NCBI GenBank assembly: GCA_015206785.1
Contig: JADEZQ010000003.1
Location: 1-64,000, forward strand
DNA: 64,000 nucleotides
Reading direction: 5' to 3'
DNA from: Quinella sp. 2Q5
Lineage (GTDB): Bacteria; Bacillota; Negativicutes; Selenomonadales; Selenomonadaceae
In this document: one piece after another, positions 2,846-45,064 of the stretch
Numbering within the stretch: the stretch's first letter is position 1
Layout of the letters: each line of letters starts with the position of its first letter
Position numbers and translations under genes: made by a program
Notes under the pieces: model-generated
The model's database searches: none
Told to the model about the DNA's origin: nothing
Seen by the model: only the letters and a program-made list of their open reading frames with translations

Positions 2846-2909
2846 GAAAATTCTCCTTTCGCGTTCGCGTAATGTTTTGGCGTTGAACTTCGCGCACGAG
2901 AAAAATTTT

Positions 2910-3075
2910 CCTGCCGAAGCCGAACAAAAATCTTGACGGTCGTCGGACGGCTTCAAGGTGCTCACATTGGATGCAACGTCACGTTGTTCCTGCCGAAGCC
3001 GAACAAAAATCTTGACAGTTGTCGAACTGCTTCAAGGTGCTCACATTGGATGCAACGTCACGTTGCTCCTGCCGC
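2910..3075. repeat. 79-bp tandem repeat, about 2.1 copies, upstream of pfk
   Basis: A unit beginning CCTGCCGAAGCCGAACAAAA starts at 2910 and again at 2989, with a third truncated start at 3068. The two full copies differ at only a few positions. Each contains GGATGCAACGTCACGTTG (2969-2986 and 3048-3065), an 18-mer that recurs inverted at 15044-15061. It occupies the gap between pfk and the small peptide gene. I see no convincing coding potential. Confidence 0.85.
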
Positions 3076-32494: not shown

Positions 32495-35400
32495 ATGGAA
32501 AAATTCACCTTCGACCTGCAACGATTCGCCAACACGTGGAAAATGAACGACAAGGAATATACTTCGCTGAAGGCGGCGGTTAATGAGGCACCGACCGACG
32601 GCACCGAGACTGTAATTAACCTCACGAATTCCGACAATTCAAAGGAAGACAACCCCACGTTTAAATCCGGTCACAACATTACGATAAGTTGCGGCAATTC
32701 CACAAACTTGAAACTTAACGGAAACGTAACCATTCCAAGCGGCGCAACCGTGACATTCACTGCCAACAAACTCAACTTAACAAACGACTATAGTACCGAG
32801 CAGCCTGTCTTTACGAACAGCGGCACCCTCACGTTGAATGGTATAACTTCGGATCGTGCGATAGTTACCAACAGCGGCGGCACGACGCATCTTTATAATT
32901 CTGCCGTAACCATGCTAAGCAGCAAAGTCGCTGTAGCCTATACCGACGACGACGGAAATAAGGTTCAATACGCGATGGACACCGCGGTCAAAGGGAAGAC
33001 TTTGACGTTCTCGTTCGATGAGAACGGCGCGGCTTCCGTCAGCGGCATAGGAGCACCCAGCGGCAACGTTAAAGGTACCAAGTTCACCGCCGTCACAACC
33101 AAAACAGACGGCACTTCCGAAACCGTCATCTACGAGGCAACAGCCGTCGCGTTGACTGCCACCCGTGGCACCGACACCCGTCCTTATATCGGTGCTTATG
33201 AAGGCAAGTCGATACCAATGTCTTCGCTGATCTACGACAACATTCACCCCGCCATCATGGTGCCGGACATCAGCGAATTGCCGCTCGATTATGCCACGAT
33301 AACCGGTTGGGGCGACTACGAGAACGACGAGATCAACATCGTCAACGAAAACGAGATCACCAAAGAATACGGCAAAGTCATCTATCGCGGCAACGACACC
33401 GTCGAAGTCTACAACGCCGACAACACCAAATGGGGCAAGGTCACCGTGGACGCGGGGCTCATTGCCGTGTTCGCCAAAGAGTTCCAGAACATTCCCATCA
33501 CCGTCGACACGACGCAATTCACTTCAACGACGGAAGACGCTTTCACCGTCAACGGCGCGGGCAGCAATGTTTCCGTGGACGGGGCAGTCTCCCTAACTTT
33601 GACGGACGGCACGCTTCTAACCGCGCAGAATGACCAGACCATCGTTGCGGACTCCCACACACTCACGGGCTACACTGATTCGGGCAAAGACAAAAACGGT
33701 CTGCTCGTCACCCCCTACGATATTGACGACATAAACGAAGGCGAGAGCTTCAAGCTCGACGACGCCACCTATACCAAAGCCGCGGTCGGGATAATCAGCA
33801 CGGATCAAAACGGCGGCATCGACAAGTTCTACACGGGCGACTCCGAAGCTCCAATCACGTTGAGCAGTTTTGCCGACAAGATGAAAACCGCCATCACTCC
33901 CAACGACGACAAAGTTCTGATTCTCGGCGTGGGTAAAGCTACTGCAGACGCCGCGGTCTTGAGCTCAACCGACGTCGACGATGCGTCTAGGCTGGCGGAT
34001 CTGACCGTCAAGGGAAAGAACCACACGCTCGACACCATTGACGGCGGGGACGTTGCCGACTTCAAGAGCGCGGTCGATACCATCAGCGTAGCCGGCGGGG
34101 CAACGACTATCAATTACTCCCTCATCAGCGGCGACGGCACCGTTATCGTCACATCGACGGGCGCGACGTTCATCGTCAACCAATGCACGGATTCGTTCAC
34201 CGTCAACGGCACGACATCAAACCCGACCGTCACCGACGCCGACGAGCTGACTTTGTTGGGCGGAAGTATCACCGCTTCGGCAGACCAAACCATCAACATC
34301 GGCAACAGGAAATTCGTCGCGGGCGGCAACATGACAATCGCCTTCACCCCCGCAACCGACACTGAACCCGCCGTTGCGACCGTCACGGGCAAGACCGGCA
34401 ACACCTTCAAGCTCGACGGCACCGAATACGCTCTGGGCGAAAACGGCGACGGAATGACCTTCGACATCAGCAACGCCGACGTCATCATCAGCGGCTTCGA
34501 CAAGACCAAGGAAGCTCTCACCATTGGCACGACGAACTACTCACTCAACAGCGCGGGCTTCATGCGGGAAGATTCCAACAGCAATATCAGCCTGTGGAAT
34601 AAAACCGACTATCATACGTTGGAAGGCGGCACCGTCACCTATTCCGACCTGACCGTTAAGAGCAGCTGGGCGACGCTCGCGACCGTGGACGCCGAAAACA
34701 ATTCCGCAACCGTCGCCGCGGATACGGGCACCGTCATCCTCATCGGCGACGACTACGCGAGTCTTTACGGCTCGCTGACCAAGAGCGGCTCTGCCTACAA
34801 TTTGCAGACCGTCACTGGCGGCGCGACCTTCGACAGCCTGACCATCAACGACAAGCTGACCGTTACATTGGGCGCAGGTTTGACCGACGTCACCATCAGC
34901 GCGGACGGTGTCGCCACTCTAGCCGTCACCGACGACGCCGCCGACGGCTATCAGCTCACGCTGTCGGGTGCTGCCGCGCAGATTTCCAACGGCGAGACCT
35001 TGACGCTGATTGAAGGTGCGCTTGCGGCTGATTCAAATGTCACCGTCAACACCAACTCCAAAGATTTCTACGCGCTGGGCACGGCGACCGTCACCTTGGA
35101 CGCCACGTCCTCCGACGCCACTATCAACGGCATTGACGCGACGGAAGCCTTCAGCTACGGCGGCATATCCTATACGTTGCTGTCGGACGTGGAAAGGTTC
35201 ATTCGTTCGGACGGAATGGTTTGGAGCGACGACGAAATTTCCGACGGCTCCGTTGTGCTCAGTGAATTGACCGACAACAACTGGAATGCCGTCATCGCGG
35301 GGGCGGCTAGCTTCACTCTCACCGGCGAAATGGTTAACAGCCTCAGCAACGGCGGCGTGGCTTTCATCGTCGACGACACCGCCAATCCCACGGAAATTTA

Positions 35401-38400
35401 CGGCTCATTGACCAGAAACACCGCCAAAGCCGTCACGTTGAGCATGGACGGTTCCAACACGAAATTCACCGCCGTGACCGTGCCGAACAACGTCGCCGTC
35501 ACCTTCACCGACGAATTCCAGAACATCTCCGTCACTGCGGGCTCCGCAACCTTCACCGCGCCGAACAAGGAAGAATTCACCGTCACCGCCACGACATCGG
35601 CAGTCACCGTTGCCGACGCCAAAGTCCTCAAACTCCTCAGTGGCACGCTGACGCTGACCGATTCGAAGCAAATCGTCACCGCGGGCAAACATTCCGTCAA
35701 TCAAGAGTCGGGCACCGTCACCGTCAACTACGACGGCACGAACGTCACCGTGGGTAGCTTGGACGAGGCTGGCGACTCCGTCACCGTCAACAATGTCAAA
35801 TACACGCTCAGCGACGGCGACGGCATCAGCGTCAAGATCAGCGGCAACAAAACTCTGGTGGAAGGCATTACATCTGGCGACATCTTCACCATCGGCGAAG
35901 ACACCTTCGTCAAGACGAATTTCGGCTTCATCAAGAACGATTCGTATCTGTGGACGAACACCGACGCTGAAACCGAGGTCGACGTCAGCAGATTCACCGG
36001 CACCTCAACCGACGACTGGACGCACATCATCGCCAGCCCCGACGGCGTCATCACCATCACCGCAACCGAGACGGGCATACTCGTTGACCAAGCGGGCGAA
36101 GACGGAACTCCCACGACGATTTACGGGCAGCTGACAAACGTCAAGAACGTTTACACCCTGACGCAATACGAAAACAACACTCCCACCGGCGTCAAGCTCA
36201 TCAGCGTGGACGGGCTCAACGCTTCCATCGCCAAGGAATACGCCAAGATTCCCGTCAACGCCACGAACAAAGCAGTCATCACCACGGACGGCACGGAACT
36301 GACCTTTGCGCCCGAAACTGGCGACACCTTTACCTTCGGCGGCACCAAATACGTTATGACCGACGCGGGCTTGACCCACGGCAACTACATCTGGACGACG
36401 GCGGGCGAAGATCAATACGTCCTGCCCACCAAGCTTGACGCAAGATCATGGTCGAAGATGTTGGTGCTCACCGATGACGGCGTGCTAAACCTCAACAGCT
36501 CCACGCCCGACAGCGGCTTAAACATCGTCGTCGACAGCGGCAAGGAAGAACGCATGGCGCAGTTGACATATGCGGCGAATGATTACGACTTCCGCGGCGA
36601 GGGCGACAACACCGTTGAGACTATCCAAATGCCCGCGGGGACTATGACCGTCACCACAAATTTTGATACGACGATTAATACCGGCGAGGGCACTTACACC
36701 GTCAACGACGCCAATTACGTCGGCAAGAACTTGAGCATATCGGCAACGAGTTCGGGCTCAACGCTCTTCGACGGCACCGTAACCATCAGCGCGGACAGCG
36801 TCACTGCCAACGAGACCATCAGCGTGGAAAACGGCTCCATCACCGCCACGGCAAAGGAAGGCGAATGGACTAGGCTGGGTTCGCTCTCGACGGGCGACAA
36901 GTTCAAAATCGGCGACACCACCTACGCAGTGGGTACGGGCGGCACTTTGGCGATATTGGACGCGAGCGGCAACTACGAGAGAATTTACACGTCATACATC
37001 ACGGGCTCGGCGATTGATTATGCCGCGCTAACTGACGAGAACAACTACAGCACCATAGTCGAGCTGACGGCTGACGGCGTGCTGAATCTGGACTTCGACT
37101 ACGCCGGCGCAATCGTCACTGCCAAGGGCGACCCGACCACGCGCGTTGCTGATGTGACCTTCAGCGGCTCAAGCTACACGTTGACCAAACGCACCGACGG
37201 CGATACTTCCGTGCTAAAGAGCGTCAACCTCGGAAGCAATTCATTGACAACCGACATAGACACCACCGTCAACACGACGGGCGCAGGCGAATTCGATATC
37301 AACGGCAACAACTTCACTGCCCGCGGCGATCTGACATTCGTCACGCCGAAGAACAACGCGTACCTGACGGCAGGCTCGGTCACCGTATCCAGCGGCGACA
37401 GCGTCATCGTTCGTCGCAAAGTCAACAGCGCGAACAAGGACGAAAACATCACTTCCACGGGCGGCACGTTCACCGTCGAGGCAACGGGCACCGTCACCAC
37501 CATCAGCGCACTCAACGAAGGCACGTCGTTTAGCGTGGGCTCCTCTGCCTACACCATGACGAGCGTCGGTTTGGCGACGAGCGAACTGACCAAACTCAAC
37601 ACGAACATAACCGATTCGGTAACCACTGCGGATTTGGGCACCGACCTAAAGACCGTGCACGTCGTAGAGAACGGCGCGTTGGTCGTCACGCAATCAACCG
37701 GGGCTGATGTTGTGCTGGCTAATTTGGACGACCCGACCAATGCGACTTACTACGGCACGCTGACCAAAGCTAATGGGCTCTACACTTTGACGACTTCCGA
37801 CACTGAATTGACGTCCATCACGGCTGACGGCGTGAAGATTTCCTTGCCGCCGACCGAAACGTCAATCACCGCGGGCACTGCCACCTTCACCGCCGAAGCG
37901 ACCGACAACTTCACCGTGGACGGGGCAAAGTCTTTCACCGACGCGCCGACCGTTTACCTGACCGCCGGAATCGTCAACGTCTCTAAGGGCACAACCGTTC
38001 ATGCGGGCGGATATCAGATTGCCGCGACTTCAGACATCAGCGTTTCCATCTACGACGACGTCGTCATCGGCAACTTGAACACCGGCGACACCTTCAGCGT
38101 GGACGGCACCGCCTACACCATGAACGCGGGCGGGCTCTACGTCACTGAAAGCAAACAGATCGTCACCGCCGGCGTCTCGGAAGATTTGACGACGTTCACG
38201 CCGTCGGAGGCTCAACTCAACGACATCATCGCGCCCGAAGGCAACGTCCTAGACCTGACCAATCAAAAATCCGCCGCGCTGGTTTATGACGACCTGACTG
38301 CGCCGAAAGTTTTGCTCGGCACCGTAAGCGTCGGTTCAGTCCTTGAGCTTGAAGGCACGACCTCTGCCGCCGCCAACATCAAATCCGTCATCATTCCTGC

Positions 38401-41400
38401 CACGCCGTTCACCGTCGACTTCGTTACGCTCGTGACTGCACCCGCGGGCACCGTCACCGTCAACGATACCGTCTTCGACGCCGCCGAACAGATCATCGTC
38501 CAATCCGACGGGGAAACCGCCACGCTTTACAGCGGCTCGGTCGTCCTCGACAACGCCACGCCTTCCGCCACAGCCGACGTCACCATCCAAATCGGAAGCG
38601 GAACTTTCACCGCCAAAGCCGACGCCGGCAAGTTCACGTCAATCAGCGGGCTCGACGCCGACGAAAGCTTCATCTACAACGGCACGACTTACACGCAGAC
38701 AGCTCTCGGTTTGGTCAACGACTTCACGATTGCTCCCGACTTGACCGGCACGACGATTGATTTGAGCAAGCTCACCTCGGCGAAATGGTACAACATCGTC
38801 AACGCTCAAGACGTGCTCGACCTCAACACAATCACGGCGGACAGTCTCGTCATCGACGGGGACACTAAGCTCGGCACAGTCACCGTCAGCAATGGCGCGT
38901 TCACGATTGACTTCAGCACGCAGGTTAAGGCTTCGGGCACCGTCACCATCAATGGCACCGAATTCAATTCCGCCGAAGAAATGATTCTGGACGTGACGGC
39001 TGACTCTGCGACGCTCAACACCGGCACCGTCGCCGTGAATGGAACTGCTACCGCTACCAACGACTCAATCAGCGGCAAAGGCTTCACCGCCACCGCAGAG
39101 AACGGCAAGTTCATTCAGATTGACGGGCTCAACGCGGGCGAGACGTTCACATATGGCGGCACGACTTACACGCAGACGGATCTTGGTCTCATCAGCGGCA
39201 ACACCATCGCCACCGATTTGAGCGGCTCGACCATAGAGCTGAAGACGCTGGACGCCGCAGATTGGCAAGGCTTCATCACTCCCACCGACGGCGTCATCGA
39301 CCTCAACACAATCACCGCGGACAGCCTCGTCATCGAGAAAAATATTTTGCTCGGCACAGTCACCATCAGCAATGGCGCATTCACCGTGGACTTCAGCACG
39401 CAGGCTAAGGCAACGGGCACCGTCACCGTCAATGATGTGGCTTACGACGCGACGGGCGAAATAATTCTGGACGTGACGGCTGATAGTTCCACCCTCAACA
39501 CCGGCACCGTCAACGTCAACGGAACTGCCACCGCTACCAACGATTCAATCAGCGGCAACGGTTTCAATGCCACGGCGAAGGCGGGCAAGTTCACGTCAAT
39601 CAGCGGGCTCAACGCGGGCGAGACGTTCACATACAACGGCACGACTTACACGCAATCGGATCTCGGTCTGGTCAATGGCAACACAATCGCTACGGACTTG
39701 AGCGGCACGACGATTGATTTGAGCAAACTGGCTTCGGCGAAATGGTTCAACATCGTCAATCCCACCGACGGCTTGCTCGACCTCAATACCATCACCGCGG
39801 ACAGCGTCATCATCGACGACGGCAAGAAGCTCGGCACCGTCACCGTCAGCAATGGCGCATTCACCGTGGACTTCAGCACGCAGGCTAAGGCTTCGGGCAC
39901 CGTCACCGTGAACAAAGTCAGCTACGACGGCGCGGGCGAAATAATTCTGGACGTCACCGCTAAGATCGCGACCTTGAACGCGGGCACCGTCAACGTCAAC
40001 GGCAACGTCGTCGCGACGAATGACACCATCAGCGGCAAAGGCTTCACTGCCACCGCTCTGGAAGGCAAATTCACCACGGTCAGCGGGCTCGACGCCAACG
40101 AGACCTTCACATACGGCGGCGACAAGTTCAAGCTCATCAGCAATGTCGGGCTGTTCAATTCGACGGATAAAACGCTGGTCACGAGCGGCTACGCCAACGG
40201 CACCGTCAACCTAGACGCAATGGTTCAGACCGCGACCATCGCCCCGACCAAAAACGTCATCGACCTCACCAAGGCGACAACTTCTATCGTCGTCGATAAC
40301 GCGACCAATCCCACTAAAATTCTCGGCAACCTCACCGTCAGCCCCGCGACATTCACGCTGGACTTTGCCACGCAGGTTAAGACCGCGGCTGATGTGGTCA
40401 CCGTCAACGGCGCGACTTACAATGCGACTACTGCCCTCACGCTCGACGTCACGGCTCAAGGCTCCACGCTCACCGAAGGCACCGTTACCCTCGCCAGTGG
40501 CGAAAGCGTCACTACCACCGGCGGCTCGACAATTTCTTCGGGGACGAATGCCGTGTTGCTCATGGCGGCGGATACGTCAATCATCACCCCAAGCGACGTC
40601 ATCAGCGTCAAAGTCAAGGGCGACACCGTCACCATCAGCGACTTCGACATCGACGACACCTTCAGCGTGGACGGCAAGACTTACACCGTCACTCAGGCGG
40701 GCATAATCAGCGGCAACAAACTTTGGGCGGGTTATGGCACATCGGTTACCACAGACGACCTTGCCGACGAGAGCAATTGGAAGGCTTTGGCTCAAGCTCC
40801 CGACGGCAACATTCGCCTCAGCGCGGATTCGACAGGCGGCGTAATTCTCGTTGACGACATCACCAACCCCACGAAGAATTACGGCACTCTTGCCAAAAAC
40901 GGCGACAAGTTCACCCTAACCGCCGGCTCCGACGCTCCGAACAAAATCACCGTCGACGAAGTGGCAGTGACCTTCGACAGCGACTTTGCTTCCGTGCCGA
41001 TTACCACCGTCAACGCCGACAACACCGATACCACCTTCAGCGTCACCACCAAGAAAGCGCAATTTACCGTGGACGCTACCGGCACTGAGCCCGTCGTCGG
41101 TAATGTCAGCTCCTTGGACCTTTCCGCCGGCAAGATTCGTGCTCAATCGGGCGTGGCTATCACCGGCTCCGGTCAGGTTTTGGCAACCAGCGGTTCCTAT
41201 TCCATCGGCTCATCAACCGTCAAGCTAACCGACCAAACTCAAGACGCTGTCATCAACCTCAGCAACAATCAGATTACTTCCATCGCTTTGCCCACCGCCG
41301 GTGCTACTCTCTCTCTTGACGGCACGACTTATACCGTTCCCGCCGCAGACAGCGTTCTTGCTTACTCCGACGGCGAATGGTTCTTCCAAGGCTACGAGCC

Positions 41401-44400
41401 CACCAGCTACACCGTCTACGTCGACAAGAGCGGCAAGATTTCTGCCGACCCGGGTATCAGGCTCAGCGACGTCGTCGGCTCCGGCAACACCCTCGTCAAT
41501 GGCGCATTGACTTTGGCGACCGATAAACCCGTCACCATCGTCAACAAGACCAACCTCACCGTCTACCGCGACAGTTCCCGTATCGTCGCCATCAACGGCA
41601 CCGGTTCCATTACCATCAACCCCAACTCCATCAGCGACGGCAAGAGCACCATCTCCGTCTCCGGCGACTCCGGCGGCTTTGCAGTCTCGTTGAAGGGCTC
41701 CGCCATCAATGCCATCAGCGATATCGCCAACGCTACTGTCACCGGTTTCTCCAACGGCTCCATCACCACCGACGCCCAAGGCACCATCACCGTCGATAAA
41801 ACCTTCTTCGCTCCCGCCGGCACCGTCTACACCGTCACCAAGTCTAAGATCACCGCCGCTACTGCCGATTCAATCAGCGGCGACTTCTCCAACGGCGTCA
41901 AGGTCAACGGCACCTACTACAATGTTTCCGGCGGCATGGTCACCGTCAACGCCGAAGGTAACGTTCAAGCCAACGCGGGCACCTACTCGCTCAACGGCAA
42001 GAGTTTCGTCACCGACGTTCCCACCACTTTCCTCATGGGCAAGAATACCGTCACCGGCGCAAGCCTCAGTGCCAATGGCACCATTGCCGTCTACAACGAC
42101 GATAGATATTTCGCCGTCAACAATTCCGTACTCTCCTATCAGGGCAACTACGCCGTCACGCTCACCGTTGCCGACGATTCCGTCACCGAAGTTGATGGGC
42201 TCACCGGTTCTATCGCTGGGCTGGTCAATGCCACCGTCAACGATATCTCCAACGCCACAGTCAATGGCACCGCGCTCGTCGTTTCCGAAGCAGATGTTGT
42301 GGTCGAAAGCGGGCAAGTCTCCAAGCTCACGGGCGTAGACAGCGGGGCAACGGTGACCACCGCGCCGAATATGACGGTCAGCACTGCGCAGAACGGAACG
42401 TTCGCCTTCCCCAACGGGGCGTACAACATCAACGACACGGTGGACGGCAGCGTCGAGTTCATCACCGACAAGAAGAGCAACGTCGCCGACATCGCCAAGT
42501 TCGCCGGCTCCATCAGCGGTTCGCTAGAATCGGTCAGGCTCAACGGCAAGCAAGTGAGCACCAACGGGGCGGTGACCATCAGCACCGACGGCACGAATAT
42601 CACGGGGGTCAACGGTATGGCGGACGGCACCAGCATCAAAGGCGACCTTGAAGAGGTGACGTTTAGCCTGCCCTCTGGAAGCGTGACCATAGAGGGCGCG
42701 GCGTACACATTGGCAGGGGATGGCGTGGCAGTCAGAGACAACGTCATCACCGGTTTGGCAAACGGGGCGACAGTCACGTTGGGCACGGCGGGTGAATACT
42801 CAATCGACTCAGCGGCGGTCAGTGCCAAAGCCGGCGACGCTTACACCGTCAACCGCGACGGGCTCTACAAGATTGAACCGAGCCATCAGCCCATCAGCGA
42901 CGATTCGACTGTTCCGAGCGCGGTCATCGTCATCGACACGGACGAGAGCATTGCCGCGGGCGACGACTCCATTGCCGTTCGCCACGACGCGGACGCGACC
43001 ATCGACGTTGCCGACGGCTCCCCGACAATAATGGCGGTAAGTGGCTCGGTCACGCTGGAGAATTATCACGACAACGCGCCAATCGCCACGAGTGCCTACA
43101 GCAACGTCATCGGGGCAGTCAAGCGCGGGGAAATCAAATTCGGCGACGGCACCATGACATTGGGCGACGCGGTCATCACCTTCGACGACGACGCCACCGC
43201 CAAGGGCAAGACTGCCGCCGAGATCATCAACGCCACGGGCGACGAGGTTGAACTGGCATTCACACATTCGGACGGCGGCACCATCAACACATCGAGTTCA
43301 AGCTCACCGTATCTGCTCAAAGGCAACTACGCCGAATCCACCGGCGACACGCAAAAGAGCGGCGGCTCCACGTTGACATCGGGCGCGGGCAACGATACCC
43401 TGCTCATCGGTGCCGGTGACGTGGCAAACGCCGGCGCGGGCAACAATCAAATCTTCATCACCGACGGGGCACTGCGCACCGAGGCGGCGACAGTCGTCCT
43501 AAGCTCCGGCAAGACTGTCGTCCACAACTTCAACGACGGCTTCGGCGAGGCAAGCGACAAAATCCAAATCACCGACCTTGGCGCGTTGGAATACGATTAC
43601 GGCACGAGCGGCTTGAAGTTGACATCGGGCAATGCGCAGTTGAGTTTCGATAACGACCCCGACAAGCTCAAGCTCACCGACGGACGCAGGACATACACCG
43701 CGCAGTTCGCCGCCGACGACGAGGAGCTCAAGGTTGATGAACCCGCCGATATCTTCTACGGCAACGAGGCAGGCATAAACTTCGGCGAATACAAAGGCAC
43801 CGTTCAAGTCAACCTTGGCAACAATCTGGCGACACTCGACGGCTCGACGGCTCGCATGTACGGCATAAACAAAGTCACCGCCGGCGCGGGCGACGCCACA
43901 TTGACGGGCTCGTCTGGCTCGGATACTCTGGCGGCGGGCTCGGGCAATGCCGTCATCAACAGCGGCAAGGGCAACGACCTCATGCAAGGCGGCTCCGGCG
44001 TTGCAACCTTCCAATACACCGCGGGCGACGGCTCCGATACCGTCGAAGGTTTCAAGTTCATGGCGGGCGAAGACGACACTCAAGCCGACGTCATCAGCCT
44101 CAACACCGCCCGCAACACCATCACCGACATTCACCTTGACGGCTCGGACGTCGTCATCGGTATCAACGGCTCGGACAGCGATTGGCTCACCGTTAAAGAG
44201 GCTCAGGGCAAGCACATGCTGTTCAACGACATCATCGCCAAAGTCGATACCAACATCGCTTACGACGGCTACACCGATTGCTACGTCGGCGGCGCGGACG
44301 ATTCGACCCTGCAAGTGGGCGCGGGCTTCGACGTAGCGGATATCTGCCTTGGCATAGAAGACGGCACGCAACAATACATCGGGCGAATCACCGTGCTAGA

Positions 44401-44788
44401 CGCTTCCAACGCCGACGGCATCACCGCCCTTGTCGGCAACGAACTCAACAACCTCATCATCGGCGGCAAAGGGCAAAATTCCATCTGGGGCGGCGACAAT
44501 ACCGACGATACTCTTGTCGGCGGCACAGGGCAAAATACATTCTTCTTCGCGCTGGAGAACGGCAACGACATCATCCGCAACGCCCACGACGGCGACATCA
44601 TCGACCTGCACGGCGTCTATCTGGACAACATCGCTTCGACCAACATCAGCCGCGAAAGCGTGTCCATCACCCTCAGCGACGGCTCCAAGCTCAACGTCCA
44701 ATCGGCGGCGGCTGTGGAATACAAACTTGCCGACGGCTCAACCTACACAGCTGACCACACTACTGGCGAATGGGAACGCAAGGAATAA
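32495..44788 (+). CDS. Giant repetitive RTX-like surface or secreted protein
   Basis: A 4,097-residue protein, acidic and rich in Thr, Asp, Gly, Val and Ala, with no classical signal peptide and almost no Cys. It opens with MEKFTFDLQRFA, a start shared by large repeat proteins of Negativicutes. Most of its length is beta-rich repeat modules; residues about 2045-2560 hold near-identical 159-160-residue units. Glycine/aspartate nonapeptide-like repeats cluster near 3630-3660 (GAGNDTLLIGAGD), 3795-3850 (GSSGSDTLAAGSGN, GKGNDLMQGGSG) and 3980-4015 (GGKGQNSIWGGDNTDDTLVGG), resembling Ca2+-binding RTX motifs. The absent signal and C-terminal RTX suggest type I secretion; no exporter is nearby. AAAGGAG precedes the ATG. 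An adhesin or surface-layer role is inference. Confidence 0.85.
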   Translation: MEKFTFDLQRFANTWKMNDKEYTSLKAAVNEAPTDGTETVINLTNSDNSKEDNPTFKSGHNITISCGNSTNLKLNGNVTIPSGATVTFTANKLNLTNDYSTEQPVFTNSGTLTLNGITSDRAIVTNSGGTTHLYNSAVTMLSSKVAVAYTDDDGNKVQYAMDTAVKGKTLTFSFDENGAASVSGIGAPSGNVKGTKFTAVTTKTDGTSETVIYEATAVALTATRGTDTRPYIGAYEGKSIPMSSLIYDNIHPAIMVPDISELPLDYATITGWGDYENDEINIVNENEITKEYGKVIYRGNDTVEVYNADNTKWGKVTVDAGLIAVFAKEFQNIPITVDTTQFTSTTEDAFTVNGAGSNVSVDGAVSLTLTDGTLLTAQNDQTIVADSHTLTGYTDSGKDKNGLLVTPYDIDDINEGESFKLDDATYTKAAVGIISTDQNGGIDKFYTGDSEAPITLSSFADKMKTAITPNDDKVLILGVGKATADAAVLSSTDVDDASRLADLTVKGKNHTLDTIDGGDVADFKSAVDTISVAGGATTINYSLISGDGTVIVTSTGATFIVNQCTDSFTVNGTTSNPTVTDADELTLLGGSITASADQTINIGNRKFVAGGNMTIAFTPATDTEPAVATVTGKTGNTFKLDGTEYALGENGDGMTFDISNADVIISGFDKTKEALTIGTTNYSLNSAGFMREDSNSNISLWNKTDYHTLEGGTVTYSDLTVKSSWATLATVDAENNSATVAADTGTVILIGDDYASLYGSLTKSGSAYNLQTVTGGATFDSLTINDKLTVTLGAGLTDVTISADGVATLAVTDDAADGYQLTLSGAAAQISNGETLTLIEGALAADSNVTVNTNSKDFYALGTATVTLDATSSDATINGIDATEAFSYGGISYTLLSDVERFIRSDGMVWSDDEISDGSVVLSELTDNNWNAVIAGAASFTLTGEMVNSLSNGGVAFIVDDTANPTEIYGSLTRNTAKAVTLSMDGSNTKFTAVTVPNNVAVTFTDEFQNISVTAGSATFTAPNKEEFTVTATTSAVTVADAKVLKLLSGTLTLTDSKQIVTAGKHSVNQESGTVTVNYDGTNVTVGSLDEAGDSVTVNNVKYTLSDGDGISVKISGNKTLVEGITSGDIFTIGEDTFVKTNFGFIKNDSYLWTNTDAETEVDVSRFTGTSTDDWTHIIASPDGVITITATETGILVDQAGEDGTPTTIYGQLTNVKNVYTLTQYENNTPTGVKLISVDGLNASIAKEYAKIPVNATNKAVITTDGTELTFAPETGDTFTFGGTKYVMTDAGLTHGNYIWTTAGEDQYVLPTKLDARSWSKMLVLTDDGVLNLNSSTPDSGLNIVVDSGKEERMAQLTYAANDYDFRGEGDNTVETIQMPAGTMTVTTNFDTTINTGEGTYTVNDANYVGKNLSISATSSGSTLFDGTVTISADSVTANETISVENGSITATAKEGEWTRLGSLSTGDKFKIGDTTYAVGTGGTLAILDASGNYERIYTSYITGSAIDYAALTDENNYSTIVELTADGVLNLDFDYAGAIVTAKGDPTTRVADVTFSGSSYTLTKRTDGDTSVLKSVNLGSNSLTTDIDTTVNTTGAGEFDINGNNFTARGDLTFVTPKNNAYLTAGSVTVSSGDSVIVRRKVNSANKDENITSTGGTFTVEATGTVTTISALNEGTSFSVGSSAYTMTSVGLATSELTKLNTNITDSVTTADLGTDLKTVHVVENGALVVTQSTGADVVLANLDDPTNATYYGTLTKANGLYTLTTSDTELTSITADGVKISLPPTETSITAGTATFTAEATDNFTVDGAKSFTDAPTVYLTAGIVNVSKGTTVHAGGYQIAATSDISVSIYDDVVIGNLNTGDTFSVDGTAYTMNAGGLYVTESKQIVTAGVSEDLTTFTPSEAQLNDIIAPEGNVLDLTNQKSAALVYDDLTAPKVLLGTVSVGSVLELEGTTSAAANIKSVIIPATPFTVDFVTLVTAPAGTVTVNDTVFDAAEQIIVQSDGETATLYSGSVVLDNATPSATADVTIQIGSGTFTAKADAGKFTSISGLDADESFIYNGTTYTQTALGLVNDFTIAPDLTGTTIDLSKLTSAKWYNIVNAQDVLDLNTITADSLVIDGDTKLGTVTVSNGAFTIDFSTQVKASGTVTINGTEFNSAEEMILDVTADSATLNTGTVAVNGTATATNDSISGKGFTATAENGKFIQIDGLNAGETFTYGGTTYTQTDLGLISGNTIATDLSGSTIELKTLDAADWQGFITPTDGVIDLNTITADSLVIEKNILLGTVTISNGAFTVDFSTQAKATGTVTVNDVAYDATGEIILDVTADSSTLNTGTVNVNGTATATNDSISGNGFNATAKAGKFTSISGLNAGETFTYNGTTYTQSDLGLVNGNTIATDLSGTTIDLSKLASAKWFNIVNPTDGLLDLNTITADSVIIDDGKKLGTVTVSNGAFTVDFSTQAKASGTVTVNKVSYDGAGEIILDVTAKIATLNAGTVNVNGNVVATNDTISGKGFTATALEGKFTTVSGLDANETFTYGGDKFKLISNVGLFNSTDKTLVTSGYANGTVNLDAMVQTATIAPTKNVIDLTKATTSIVVDNATNPTKILGNLTVSPATFTLDFATQVKTAADVVTVNGATYNATTALTLDVTAQGSTLTEGTVTLASGESVTTTGGSTISSGTNAVLLMAADTSIITPSDVISVKVKGDTVTISDFDIDDTFSVDGKTYTVTQAGIISGNKLWAGYGTSVTTDDLADESNWKALAQAPDGNIRLSADSTGGVILVDDITNPTKNYGTLAKNGDKFTLTAGSDAPNKITVDEVAVTFDSDFASVPITTVNADNTDTTFSVTTKKAQFTVDATGTEPVVGNVSSLDLSAGKIRAQSGVAITGSGQVLATSGSYSIGSSTVKLTDQTQDAVINLSNNQITSIALPTAGATLSLDGTTYTVPAADSVLAYSDGEWFFQGYEPTSYTVYVDKSGKISADPGIRLSDVVGSGNTLVNGALTLATDKPVTIVNKTNLTVYRDSSRIVAINGTGSITINPNSISDGKSTISVSGDSGGFAVSLKGSAINAISDIANATVTGFSNGSITTDAQGTITVDKTFFAPAGTVYTVTKSKITAATADSISGDFSNGVKVNGTYYNVSGGMVTVNAEGNVQANAGTYSLNGKSFVTDVPTTFLMGKNTVTGASLSANGTIAVYNDDRYFAVNNSVLSYQGNYAVTLTVADDSVTEVDGLTGSIAGLVNATVNDISNATVNGTALVVSEADVVVESGQVSKLTGVDSGATVTTAPNMTVSTAQNGTFAFPNGAYNINDTVDGSVEFITDKKSNVADIAKFAGSISGSLESVRLNGKQVSTNGAVTISTDGTNITGVNGMADGTSIKGDLEEVTFSLPSGSVTIEGAAYTLAGDGVAVRDNVITGLANGATVTLGTAGEYSIDSAAVSAKAGDAYTVNRDGLYKIEPSHQPISDDSTVPSAVIVIDTDESIAAGDDSIAVRHDADATIDVADGSPTIMAVSGSVTLENYHDNAPIATSAYSNVIGAVKRGEIKFGDGTMTLGDAVITFDDDATAKGKTAAEIINATGDEVELAFTHSDGGTINTSSSSSPYLLKGNYAESTGDTQKSGGSTLTSGAGNDTLLIGAGDVANAGAGNNQIFITDGALRTEAATVVLSSGKTVVHNFNDGFGEASDKIQITDLGALEYDYGTSGLKLTSGNAQLSFDNDPDKLKLTDGRRTYTAQFAADDEELKVDEPADIFYGNEAGINFGEYKGTVQVNLGNNLATLDGSTARMYGINKVTAGAGDATLTGSSGSDTLAAGSGNAVINSGKGNDLMQGGSGVATFQYTAGDGSDTVEGFKFMAGEDDTQADVISLNTARNTITDIHLDGSDVVIGINGSDSDWLTVKEAQGKHMLFNDIIAKVDTNIAYDGYTDCYVGGADDSTLQVGAGFDVADICLGIEDGTQQYIGRITVLDASNADGITALVGNELNNLIIGGKGQNSIWGGDNTDDTLVGGTGQNTFFFALENGNDIIRNAHDGDIIDLHGVYLDNIASTNISRESVSITLSDGSKLNVQSAAAVEYKLADGSTYTADHTTGEWERKE
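38627..40160 (+). repeat. Intragenic tandem repeats, period 477-480 bp
   Basis: Units beginning with GGCAA(G/A)TTCA start at 38627, 39104, 39584 and 40064; the first three are complete and the fourth diverges after about 30 codons. Each encodes GKF....GL.A.E.F.Y.GTTYTQ..LGL, then LDLNTITADS and a DFSTQ.KA.GTVTVN stretch. Silent and conservative differences dominate, indicating recent duplication. Confidence 0.85.
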
Positions 44789-45002
44789 CCCAAACGCAGT
44801 CGCACCCAATACGTGGTGCGTGGATTGAAATAAATATCATCGTGCAATCGGCGGCGGCTGTGGAGTATACAAACTTGCGGACGGCACGACCTATACCGCC
44901 GACCATACGAAACGCGAATGGGAACGCAAGTAACCCAAACGCAGTCGCACTCCTCACGGGGTGCGTGGATTGAAACCGGCGAATGGGAACGCAAAGAATA
45001 AT
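44699..45002 (+). repeat. Tandem copies of the giant gene's 3' end
   Basis: CAATCGGCGGCGGCTGTGGA (44699) recurs at 44845; both copies run through GAATGGGAACGCAAG and a stop into CCCAAACGCA and then a CRISPR-like repeat. A third fragment, CGGCGAATGGGAACGCAAAG, follows at 44977. The period is 145 bp. The second copy is frameshifted relative to the gene (GTGGAGTATAC for GTGGAATAC) and is not expressed as part of it. Confidence 0.85.
44799..44976 (+). CRISPR. Two isolated CRISPR-like repeats, type I-C style
   Basis: 33-nt units at 44799-44831 and 44944-44976 share GTCGCAC at the start and GGTGCGTGGATTGAAA near the end; arms CGCAC and GTGCG form the hairpin. These are hallmarks of type I-C CRISPR repeats. 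The 112-nt interval is far too long for a spacer (usually 33-37 nt) and is a copy of the giant gene's end. No cas gene or leader is in the window, so this is not a working array as seen. Confidence 0.55.
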
Positions 45003-45037
45003 CCTGAACGTAATCCCGAACGAACGATTCAAATCAG

Positions 45038-45064
45038 TCCCGCTCAAGTGGCGGGATTTTTTTT
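45038..45064 (+). terminator. Intrinsic terminator after the giant gene
   Basis: TCCCGC pairs with GCGGGA around CTCAAGTG or similar, followed by an eight-T run. Confidence 0.8.

Follow-up and report, generated by a model that had tools for sequence, protein, structure and literature searches.

How does a gene come to be followed by spare copies of its own end, each set off by a hairpin that resembles a repeat of a CRISPR (clustered regularly interspaced short palindromic repeats) array? This question is raised by the window analysed here, a stretch of 64,000 nt of Quinella sp. 2Q5 (contig JADEZQ010000003.1, positions 1 to 64,000 of the forward strand), in which a giant open reading frame (ORF) is followed by two type I-C-like repeats, R1 and R2, that alternate with further copies of its 3' end. 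We refer to these repeats, and to similar hairpins elsewhere in the genus, as R. Our tentative answer, to which we assign a probability of about 0.4, is that a one-ended mobile unit, with R as its fixed right end, supplies the gene with a new end, and that the old end is displaced and left behind the hairpin. This answer draws on the anatomy of the locus, its recurrence at unrelated genes, one exact difference between an occupied and an empty place, the way in which the copies differ from each other, and the agreement of the displaced copy with relatives at two loci.

Two hairpins and three ends of one gene

The arrangement of the locus agrees with the original prediction, which described two type I-C-like repeats interleaved with copies of the end of the giant ORF (Table 1), except that each repeat measures 32 nt and not 33. 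R1 (GTCGCACCCAATACGTGGTGCGTGGATTGAAA) and R2 (GTCGCACTCCTCACGGGGTGCGTGGATTGAAA) have a spacing of 145 nt, and the interval between them that holds X2 is 113 nt long. The repeat pattern, with up to 3 mismatches allowed, has two matches in the window and none in 100 shuffles, which rules out a chance origin. R2 folds as a type I-C hairpin (-13.5 kcal/mol, z -3.0); the fold of R1 is weaker (-9.4 kcal/mol, z -1.4), 19 of 200 shuffles folding equally well. The only CRISPR family listed by Rfam, CRISPR-DR9, matches R2 below its threshold (18.9 versus 45 bits, E 0.17).

X2 corresponds to about the last 97 nt of the ORF, with 81 of 95 aligned bases identical to X1 and a 2-nt insertion that shifts its reading frame. 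The gene-end fragment foreseen behind the second repeat is also there: X3 is identical to X1 at 29 of 32 aligned bases. The protein endings are TTGEWERKE for X1, GEWERKE for X3 and TKREWERK for X2. X2 has 26 consecutive bases in common with the end of a gene on contig 24 of the same genome, one that ends in TKREWNSK, and X1 differs from that gene within this stretch. No ortholog of the giant ORF was found by which X1, X2 and X3 could be ordered, a search of the genome contigs with its C-terminus giving one distant match.

Table 1. Features of the window around the 3' end of the giant ORF.
Feature	Position	Strand	Remarks
Giant ORF	32495..44788	+	4097 aa; no Pfam match at E 0.001
X1	44691..44788	+	3' end of the ORF in use, ending ..TADHTTGEWERKE and stop
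R1	44799..44830	+	I-C-like hairpin with tail TGGATTGAAA, 10 nt past the stop codon of the giant ORF
X2	44831..44943	+	gene 3' end copy (..TADHTKREWERK and stop); homology ~44837-44933; 2-nt insertion
R2	44944..44975	+	second I-C-like hairpin
X3	about 44976..45010	+	short third gene-end copy (..GEWERKE and stop), joined to downstream DNA
Terminator-like hairpin	45037..45064	+	with T run, behind X3; read by eye

Gene-end copies behind hairpins at other loci

Solitary hairpins with a similar tail stand behind coding genes and tRNAs across the genus, and one lies inside a transfer-messenger RNA (tmRNA). At the phosphoglucomutase gene of genome G145, the stop codon is followed by R, by a 75-nt copy of the gene's own end with its stop, and by a second R; a single R occupies the same place in G147 (L043). 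Among the 49 phosphoglucomutase ends examined (58 matches listed, 50 fetched), R is present in G145 only, G147 having been seen separately. Which of the two copies was resident cannot be read from this locus. At the rubrerythrin gene of G102 and G119, R is followed by a gene-end copy reading EVNAENY that runs into downstream DNA like that of relatives. The rubrerythrin end was recognised in 22 genomes (61 matches, 30 with loci; a second G104 match, 99% identical, was left out), of which 16 end in NAENY and four in other ways, NSENY, the ending of the copy in use, being confined to G102 and G119. The copies in use and behind R differ at 5 of 24 positions. The gene body differs by 1.5% between G102 and G119, and by 14-25% between the other genomes and G119.

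Twelve copies of R are linked to tRNA genes, all in sense orientation: tRNA-Leu in G000, G102, G104, G125, G147 and G149, tRNA-Thr in G147 and G157, tRNA-Val in G101 and G149, tRNA-Ala in G149, and tRNA-Arg in G129. These five kinds all have anticodons starting with C. R was present at 6 of the 60 tRNA loci listed, which were drawn from a longer list covering 24 genomes and five tRNA kinds. The copies behind R are 21 nt long and start in the T-loop at tRNA-Thr (G147) and tRNA-Ala (G149); that of tRNA-Leu is 8 nt long. In the case of tRNA-Ala, the copy behind R equals the end of the G119 tRNA from the T-loop to CCA and the DNA downstream of it is almost that of G119 as well; the T-arm in use is a different one. 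Judged by comparison with relatives, the copy behind the hairpin at rubrerythrin and tRNA-Ala is the relatives' form with native downstream DNA, the copy in use being the odd one.

At tRNA-Leu, an occupied and an empty place can be compared exactly. The flanks in G102 and G119 are nearly identical, and the difference consists of R plus CGGCACCA (8 nt) and a changed T-stem. The 8-nt junction is shared by six genomes, one of them with a base change.

Two further observations concern the coding loci. A 60-nt piece between gene and R in G104 (L078) was considered as the end of another gene and dropped, as it is in frame behind the first stop. The PGM-PGI gap holds low-complexity palindromic inserts in L093, L100, L109, L119, L125 and L126, different in each genome.

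Differences between the copies

At the phosphoglucomutase, window and rubrerythrin loci, 21 of the 29 differences between copies fall on third codon positions (p 2e-5 against 1/3; p 0.0036 against 0.46, a value that we ourselves estimated for a coding copy paired with a drifting one), as counted on hand-chosen stretches of these three loci, with indels excluded and the two pieces of the window compared separately. The coding copies of G129 and G104, being short or uncertain, did not enter the count. Duplication in place followed by drift of one copy would be expected to put differences on all codon positions of that copy. An amplified pair alone, which was one of the two origins first proposed for this locus, is unlikely in view of the mostly third-position differences at three loci and of the 26 bases that X2 has in common with the end of another gene. 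The other proposal, that the repeat acts as a joint for swapping ends, fits better as far as we can infer; its restriction to giant proteins was not upheld, since rubrerythrin, phosphoglucomutase and tRNAs show the same.

A crude test based on shuffling and alignment looked for a copy of the upstream 130 nt within the 45 nt that follow R; it was positive at 11 of 42 sites (p<0.02), where about 0.8 would be expected, and two of these 11 sites are the window's own. Inspection by eye indicated that tandem units have the tail as their common right end and differ in their left end, measuring 12-24 nt when they contain a truncated R and 53, 107 and 145 nt when they contain a gene end.

A proposed one-ended unit that displaces gene ends

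We propose that R is a mobile hairpin, either a descendant of a type I-C CRISPR repeat or a sequence of similar shape, and that it belongs to a one-ended unit whose fixed right end would be the 3' tail of R (..GGATTGAAA). A strand ending at this tail, either nicked DNA or complementary DNA (cDNA), would carry a gene 3' end from another strain, species or paralog. Once paired with the homologous resident gene, the strand would replace the resident end with its gene part, and its R end would be joined to resident DNA before the resident stop or CCA, at a point that varies. This would produce, in order, a new gene end, R, the displaced old end, and native downstream DNA. In the window, two rounds may have taken place: X3, the first resident and thus the oldest end, would have been displaced by X2-R2, and X2 subsequently by X1-R1. 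A strand that ends at R's tail and whose other end is guided by homology would leave fixed right and variable left ends, as in the tandem units. Candidate enzymes would be a nickase of the HUH (histidine-hydrophobe-histidine) type or a reverse transcriptase, neither of which is tied to R. In this proposal replacement and insertion of R would be one event, R's tail would be a cut or strand end, and an enzyme would be involved. Rather doubtful is the more specific version in which a CRISPR repeat became the terminal signal of a one-ended unit that moves gene 3' ends between species, the old end remaining as a scar. The hairpins with their spare gene tails suggest an undescribed way of swapping gene ends.

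Besides the hand choice of stretches in the third-position test, several points weigh against this proposal. At 31 of the 42 R sites the crude test gave no significant copy behind R, so that insertion without displacement seems to occur too; the 8-nt tRNA copies, too short for this test, make up part of the 31. The R at the phosphoglucomutase of G147 has no gene-end copy behind it. In G145, naming the copies as in the window, X1 is nearer than X2 to 33 of the 49 other phosphoglucomutase ends, X2 is nearer to 7, and 9 are equal, all with small margins; this X2 has probably drifted somewhat and would then not simply be another intact allele, and drift alone, with few changes, is possible. Gain and loss of R are indistinguishable in the tRNA-Leu difference between G102 and G119, and the junction common to six genomes points to one old event that was followed by losses. 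The tail of R is nearly constant and its stem and loop are variable, a constancy that is partly built in, since R was searched for with patterns and a model that demanded the tail. A conserved RNA structure was considered and rejected: stem pair counts and covariation do not exceed those of shuffles, and we make no claim of selection on the stem. Many assemblies are incomplete. Finally, neither a donor nor an enzyme was identified for the unit, Y1_Tnp not having been searched for.

Dispersal of R and the CRISPR question

A covariance model of R, built from 19 copies, was searched against 66 genomes of the genus. It matched 40 of them at E up to 1, the weak matches being doubtful, and 17 at E up to 1e-3, including G135 and G111. 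The genome of the window itself (assembly of 1.82 Mb in 42 contigs, 79% completeness) has no further copy within 3 mismatches of the repeat pattern beyond R1 and R2; the model added two, of which one follows a coding gene (L066, E 7e-6) and the other, a weak match (E 0.058), stands directly behind tRNA-Leu (L084), making four copies in total with the weak one. Sites were taken with the strong ones first and the weak ones in part, several weak sites that did not represent a hairpin behind a gene being set aside by eye. Among 37 scripted sites, a same-strand ORF ends 2-34 nt before R at 14 (11 distinct places, three of which recur in relatives) and an opposite-strand ORF ends within 40 nt behind R at 2, the others having neither among the ORFs shown; the count considered the two longest ORFs per side, and short genes may be missed. 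The possibility that the repeat is an ordinary dispersed one lying behind unrelated genes, which had been named as a reason to abandon the original prediction, is thus half borne out, in that similar repeats do stand behind unrelated genes and tRNAs.

It should be noted that a pair of CRISPR-like repeats alone is no proof of an array, and the pair in the window is not a CRISPR array, because X2 is too long for a spacer and cas genes are missing. A search of the genome of the window, at its 79% completeness, found no Cas1 and no Csd1, the latter being the type I-C marker, so the cas genes that an array would lead one to look for did not turn up. Csd1 was found in 2 of the 66 genomes, G135 and G111. 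G135 has a type I-C operon (Cas1, Cas4, Cas7, Csd1, Cas5 and a Cas3-like protein, by Pfam) and, next to it, an array of 29 copies, the commonest repeat of which shows 2 differences from R2; a repeat of this kind therefore does occur in a true array of a related genome, a point on which the original prediction had staked its validity. The six spacers seen in G135 are 34-37 nt long, compared with inserts of 113 nt in the window and 75 nt at phosphoglucomutase. In G111, one contig carries both R and a csd1 with an internal stop. Of the 17 genomes that the R model matches at E up to 1e-3, 15 have no Csd1. Family-wide, 17 of 101 genomes match the repeat pattern with up to 2 mismatches, and among the matches listed the spacing is mostly array-like.

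Alternative explanations

A serious rival, if on the whole an unlikely one, is a history in two steps, in which R inserts in the manner of a repetitive extragenic palindromic (REP) element or a miniature inverted-repeat transposable element (MITE), duplicating a target whose length varies, and ordinary homologous recombination with a relative subsequently replaces the upstream gene; the old target duplication would then be what is seen as the copy behind R. Recombination between relatives is common, many R sites are without a visible copy, and occupied and empty places look like insertion plus duplication, of 8 nt at tRNA-Leu (G102 versus G119) and likewise of 21 nt at tRNA-Thr (G147 versus G131). 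However, copies of 75-100 nt are long for a target duplication, the third-position excess is seen at all three coding loci tested, the changed tRNA-Leu stretch adjoins R within otherwise nearly identical flanks, and the truncated tandem copies of R with their common right end are left unaccounted for. Another possibility is tandem duplication by slippage or unequal crossing-over with R as a passive hairpin; the layout is tandem and hairpins promote slippage, but the third-position excess, the 26 consecutive bases that X2 shares with the end of another gene where X1 differs, and the similar layout at unrelated loci make this quite improbable. The common right end could also arise by retro-insertion, if RNAs ending at R's tail were reverse transcribed with 5' truncation and the cDNA recombined at the gene of origin. 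The fixed right and variable left ends resemble such truncation, and R is often a sense-strand feature that closely follows a stop codon or the 3' end of a tRNA. RVT_1, however, was found in 10 of 30 genomes, in incomplete assemblies; among R carriers it is present in G102, G145, G151, G092 and G107 and was not found in the likewise incomplete assemblies of G000, G101, G119, G125, G129, G133, G147, G149 and G157, the genome of the window being one of these nine, which weakens the cDNA form. Moreover, cDNA from the same cell would not alone bring foreign-looking ends, and we regard this course of events as improbable.

That the repeats are the remnant of an ordinary CRISPR array, or a solitary repeat unit serving as RNA anti-CRISPR (Racr) and left by a phage, is very improbable. 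The repeat does match type I-C, and in the part of PMC10651486 considered here an I-C solitary repeat acts as an RNA anti-CRISPR. A viral contig (L213) carries such a repeat behind a tRNA. Against this stand the inserts, which are not spacers, and the distribution of Csd1 given above; in addition, several neighbours of R look, from their translations, like housekeeping genes, no prophage search having been made. The explanation to which we give least credence is that an integrative element, with an integrase that attaches at gene 3' ends, has left a scar. The 21-nt tRNA copies behind R span T-loop to CCA, as integrase cores do, and a repeat on viral contig L211 lies just upstream of an ORF that by eye is like a serine recombinase; yet at the loci examined R and the copy are not separated by any larger insert, and the phosphoglucomutase, L14, L29 and 5' leader sites are unusual for integrases.

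Relation to known systems and implications

R was assigned neither to type I-C arrays nor to Racr nor to REP elements, as for each of them a defining feature was looked for and found lacking. With type I-C repeats it shares a length of 32 nt, a hairpin and the tail GTGGATTGAAA, and a near-identical repeat is found in the G135 array; unlike these repeats, it has few copies, no spacers, variable stems and gene ends between copies, and carriers mostly without a detected Csd1. E. coli offers a precedent of another kind, the rtT repeats at tyrT, in which copies of the tRNA 3' end are repeated behind the tRNA in 178-bp units; we know of no CRISPR-like hairpin in them. In the one-ended transposition of IS91 and Helitron elements, a unit with one fixed and one variable end picks up neighbouring DNA. 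Like R, these elements have a hairpin near one end, according to the part of PMC4778049 considered here; unlike them, the R unit is tiny, its insertion is guided by gene homology, and no transposase was identified (again, Y1_Tnp was not searched for).

Like Racr, R is a single mimic of a CRISPR repeat outside arrays. The passages of PMC10651486 considered here describe solitary repeats on viral and plasmid sequences, which can be RNA anti-CRISPRs, among them an I-C repeat that follows a gene at a distance of 11 nt; of those whose host has cas operons, 83% match the host's subtype. R differs from what these passages describe in its housekeeping-like neighbours, its gene-end copies, and the lack of a detected Csd1 in the genome of the window. 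REP elements, with their REP-associated tyrosine transposase (RAYT), are the nearest dispersed kind to R: as far as the portions of PMC3733652 considered here go, they are extragenic palindromes of 20-40 nt in several copies, compared with four of R in the genome of the window, but R is without a GTAG or CGTC tag (by eye) and has its tail at the 3' side. Displaced gene ends are not described in these passages of PMC10651486 and PMC3733652, and the main text of the latter has no word starting with "duplicat". An architecture of hairpin plus displaced gene end was not met in a limited search of partial sources, and we do not claim that it is absent from print.

If the proposed unit exists, it will add a new route to the ways in which bacteria exchange genetic material. 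Bacteria exchange whole genes and gene segments, and a small dedicated signal at gene 3' ends would serve the exchange of C-termini and tRNA 3' ends. The displaced ends would be readable scars that order the events, and CRISPR-type repeats would have a life outside immunity, in genomes without detectable matching cas genes.

Other observations

In viral contigs, the general repeat pattern occurs in six stretches, some of them arrays and some solitary; the pattern of a tRNA end plus R gave no match there, and a similarity search of phages gave two weak matches. L213 is a 115-kb viral contig on whose minus strand a tRNA (by eye) precedes the solitary I-C-like repeat. The repeat of L211 lies at 626-657, and a second, degenerate repeat (by eye) is located upstream of it.

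In L072 (G125, near ribosomal protein genes), a second repeated sequence, GTGCGTAGGGAGTAATTACTGTCAAGGATGAC, immediately precedes R at one site and lies one base before it at the other. A structured sequence of 138-153 nt stands at different loci (L217, L218, L223, L226 and L242), with conservation stopping exactly at GGATTGAAA. Rfam gave only one sub-threshold match for four of its loci. It was considered as the full-length master element of R and rejected, having 5 strong copies in 4 of the 66 genomes and none in the genome of the window.

The window also contains a 79-bp tandem duplication at 2908-3074 (2.1 copies) and, within the giant ORF at 38626-40114, a 480-bp repeat in 3.1 copies.

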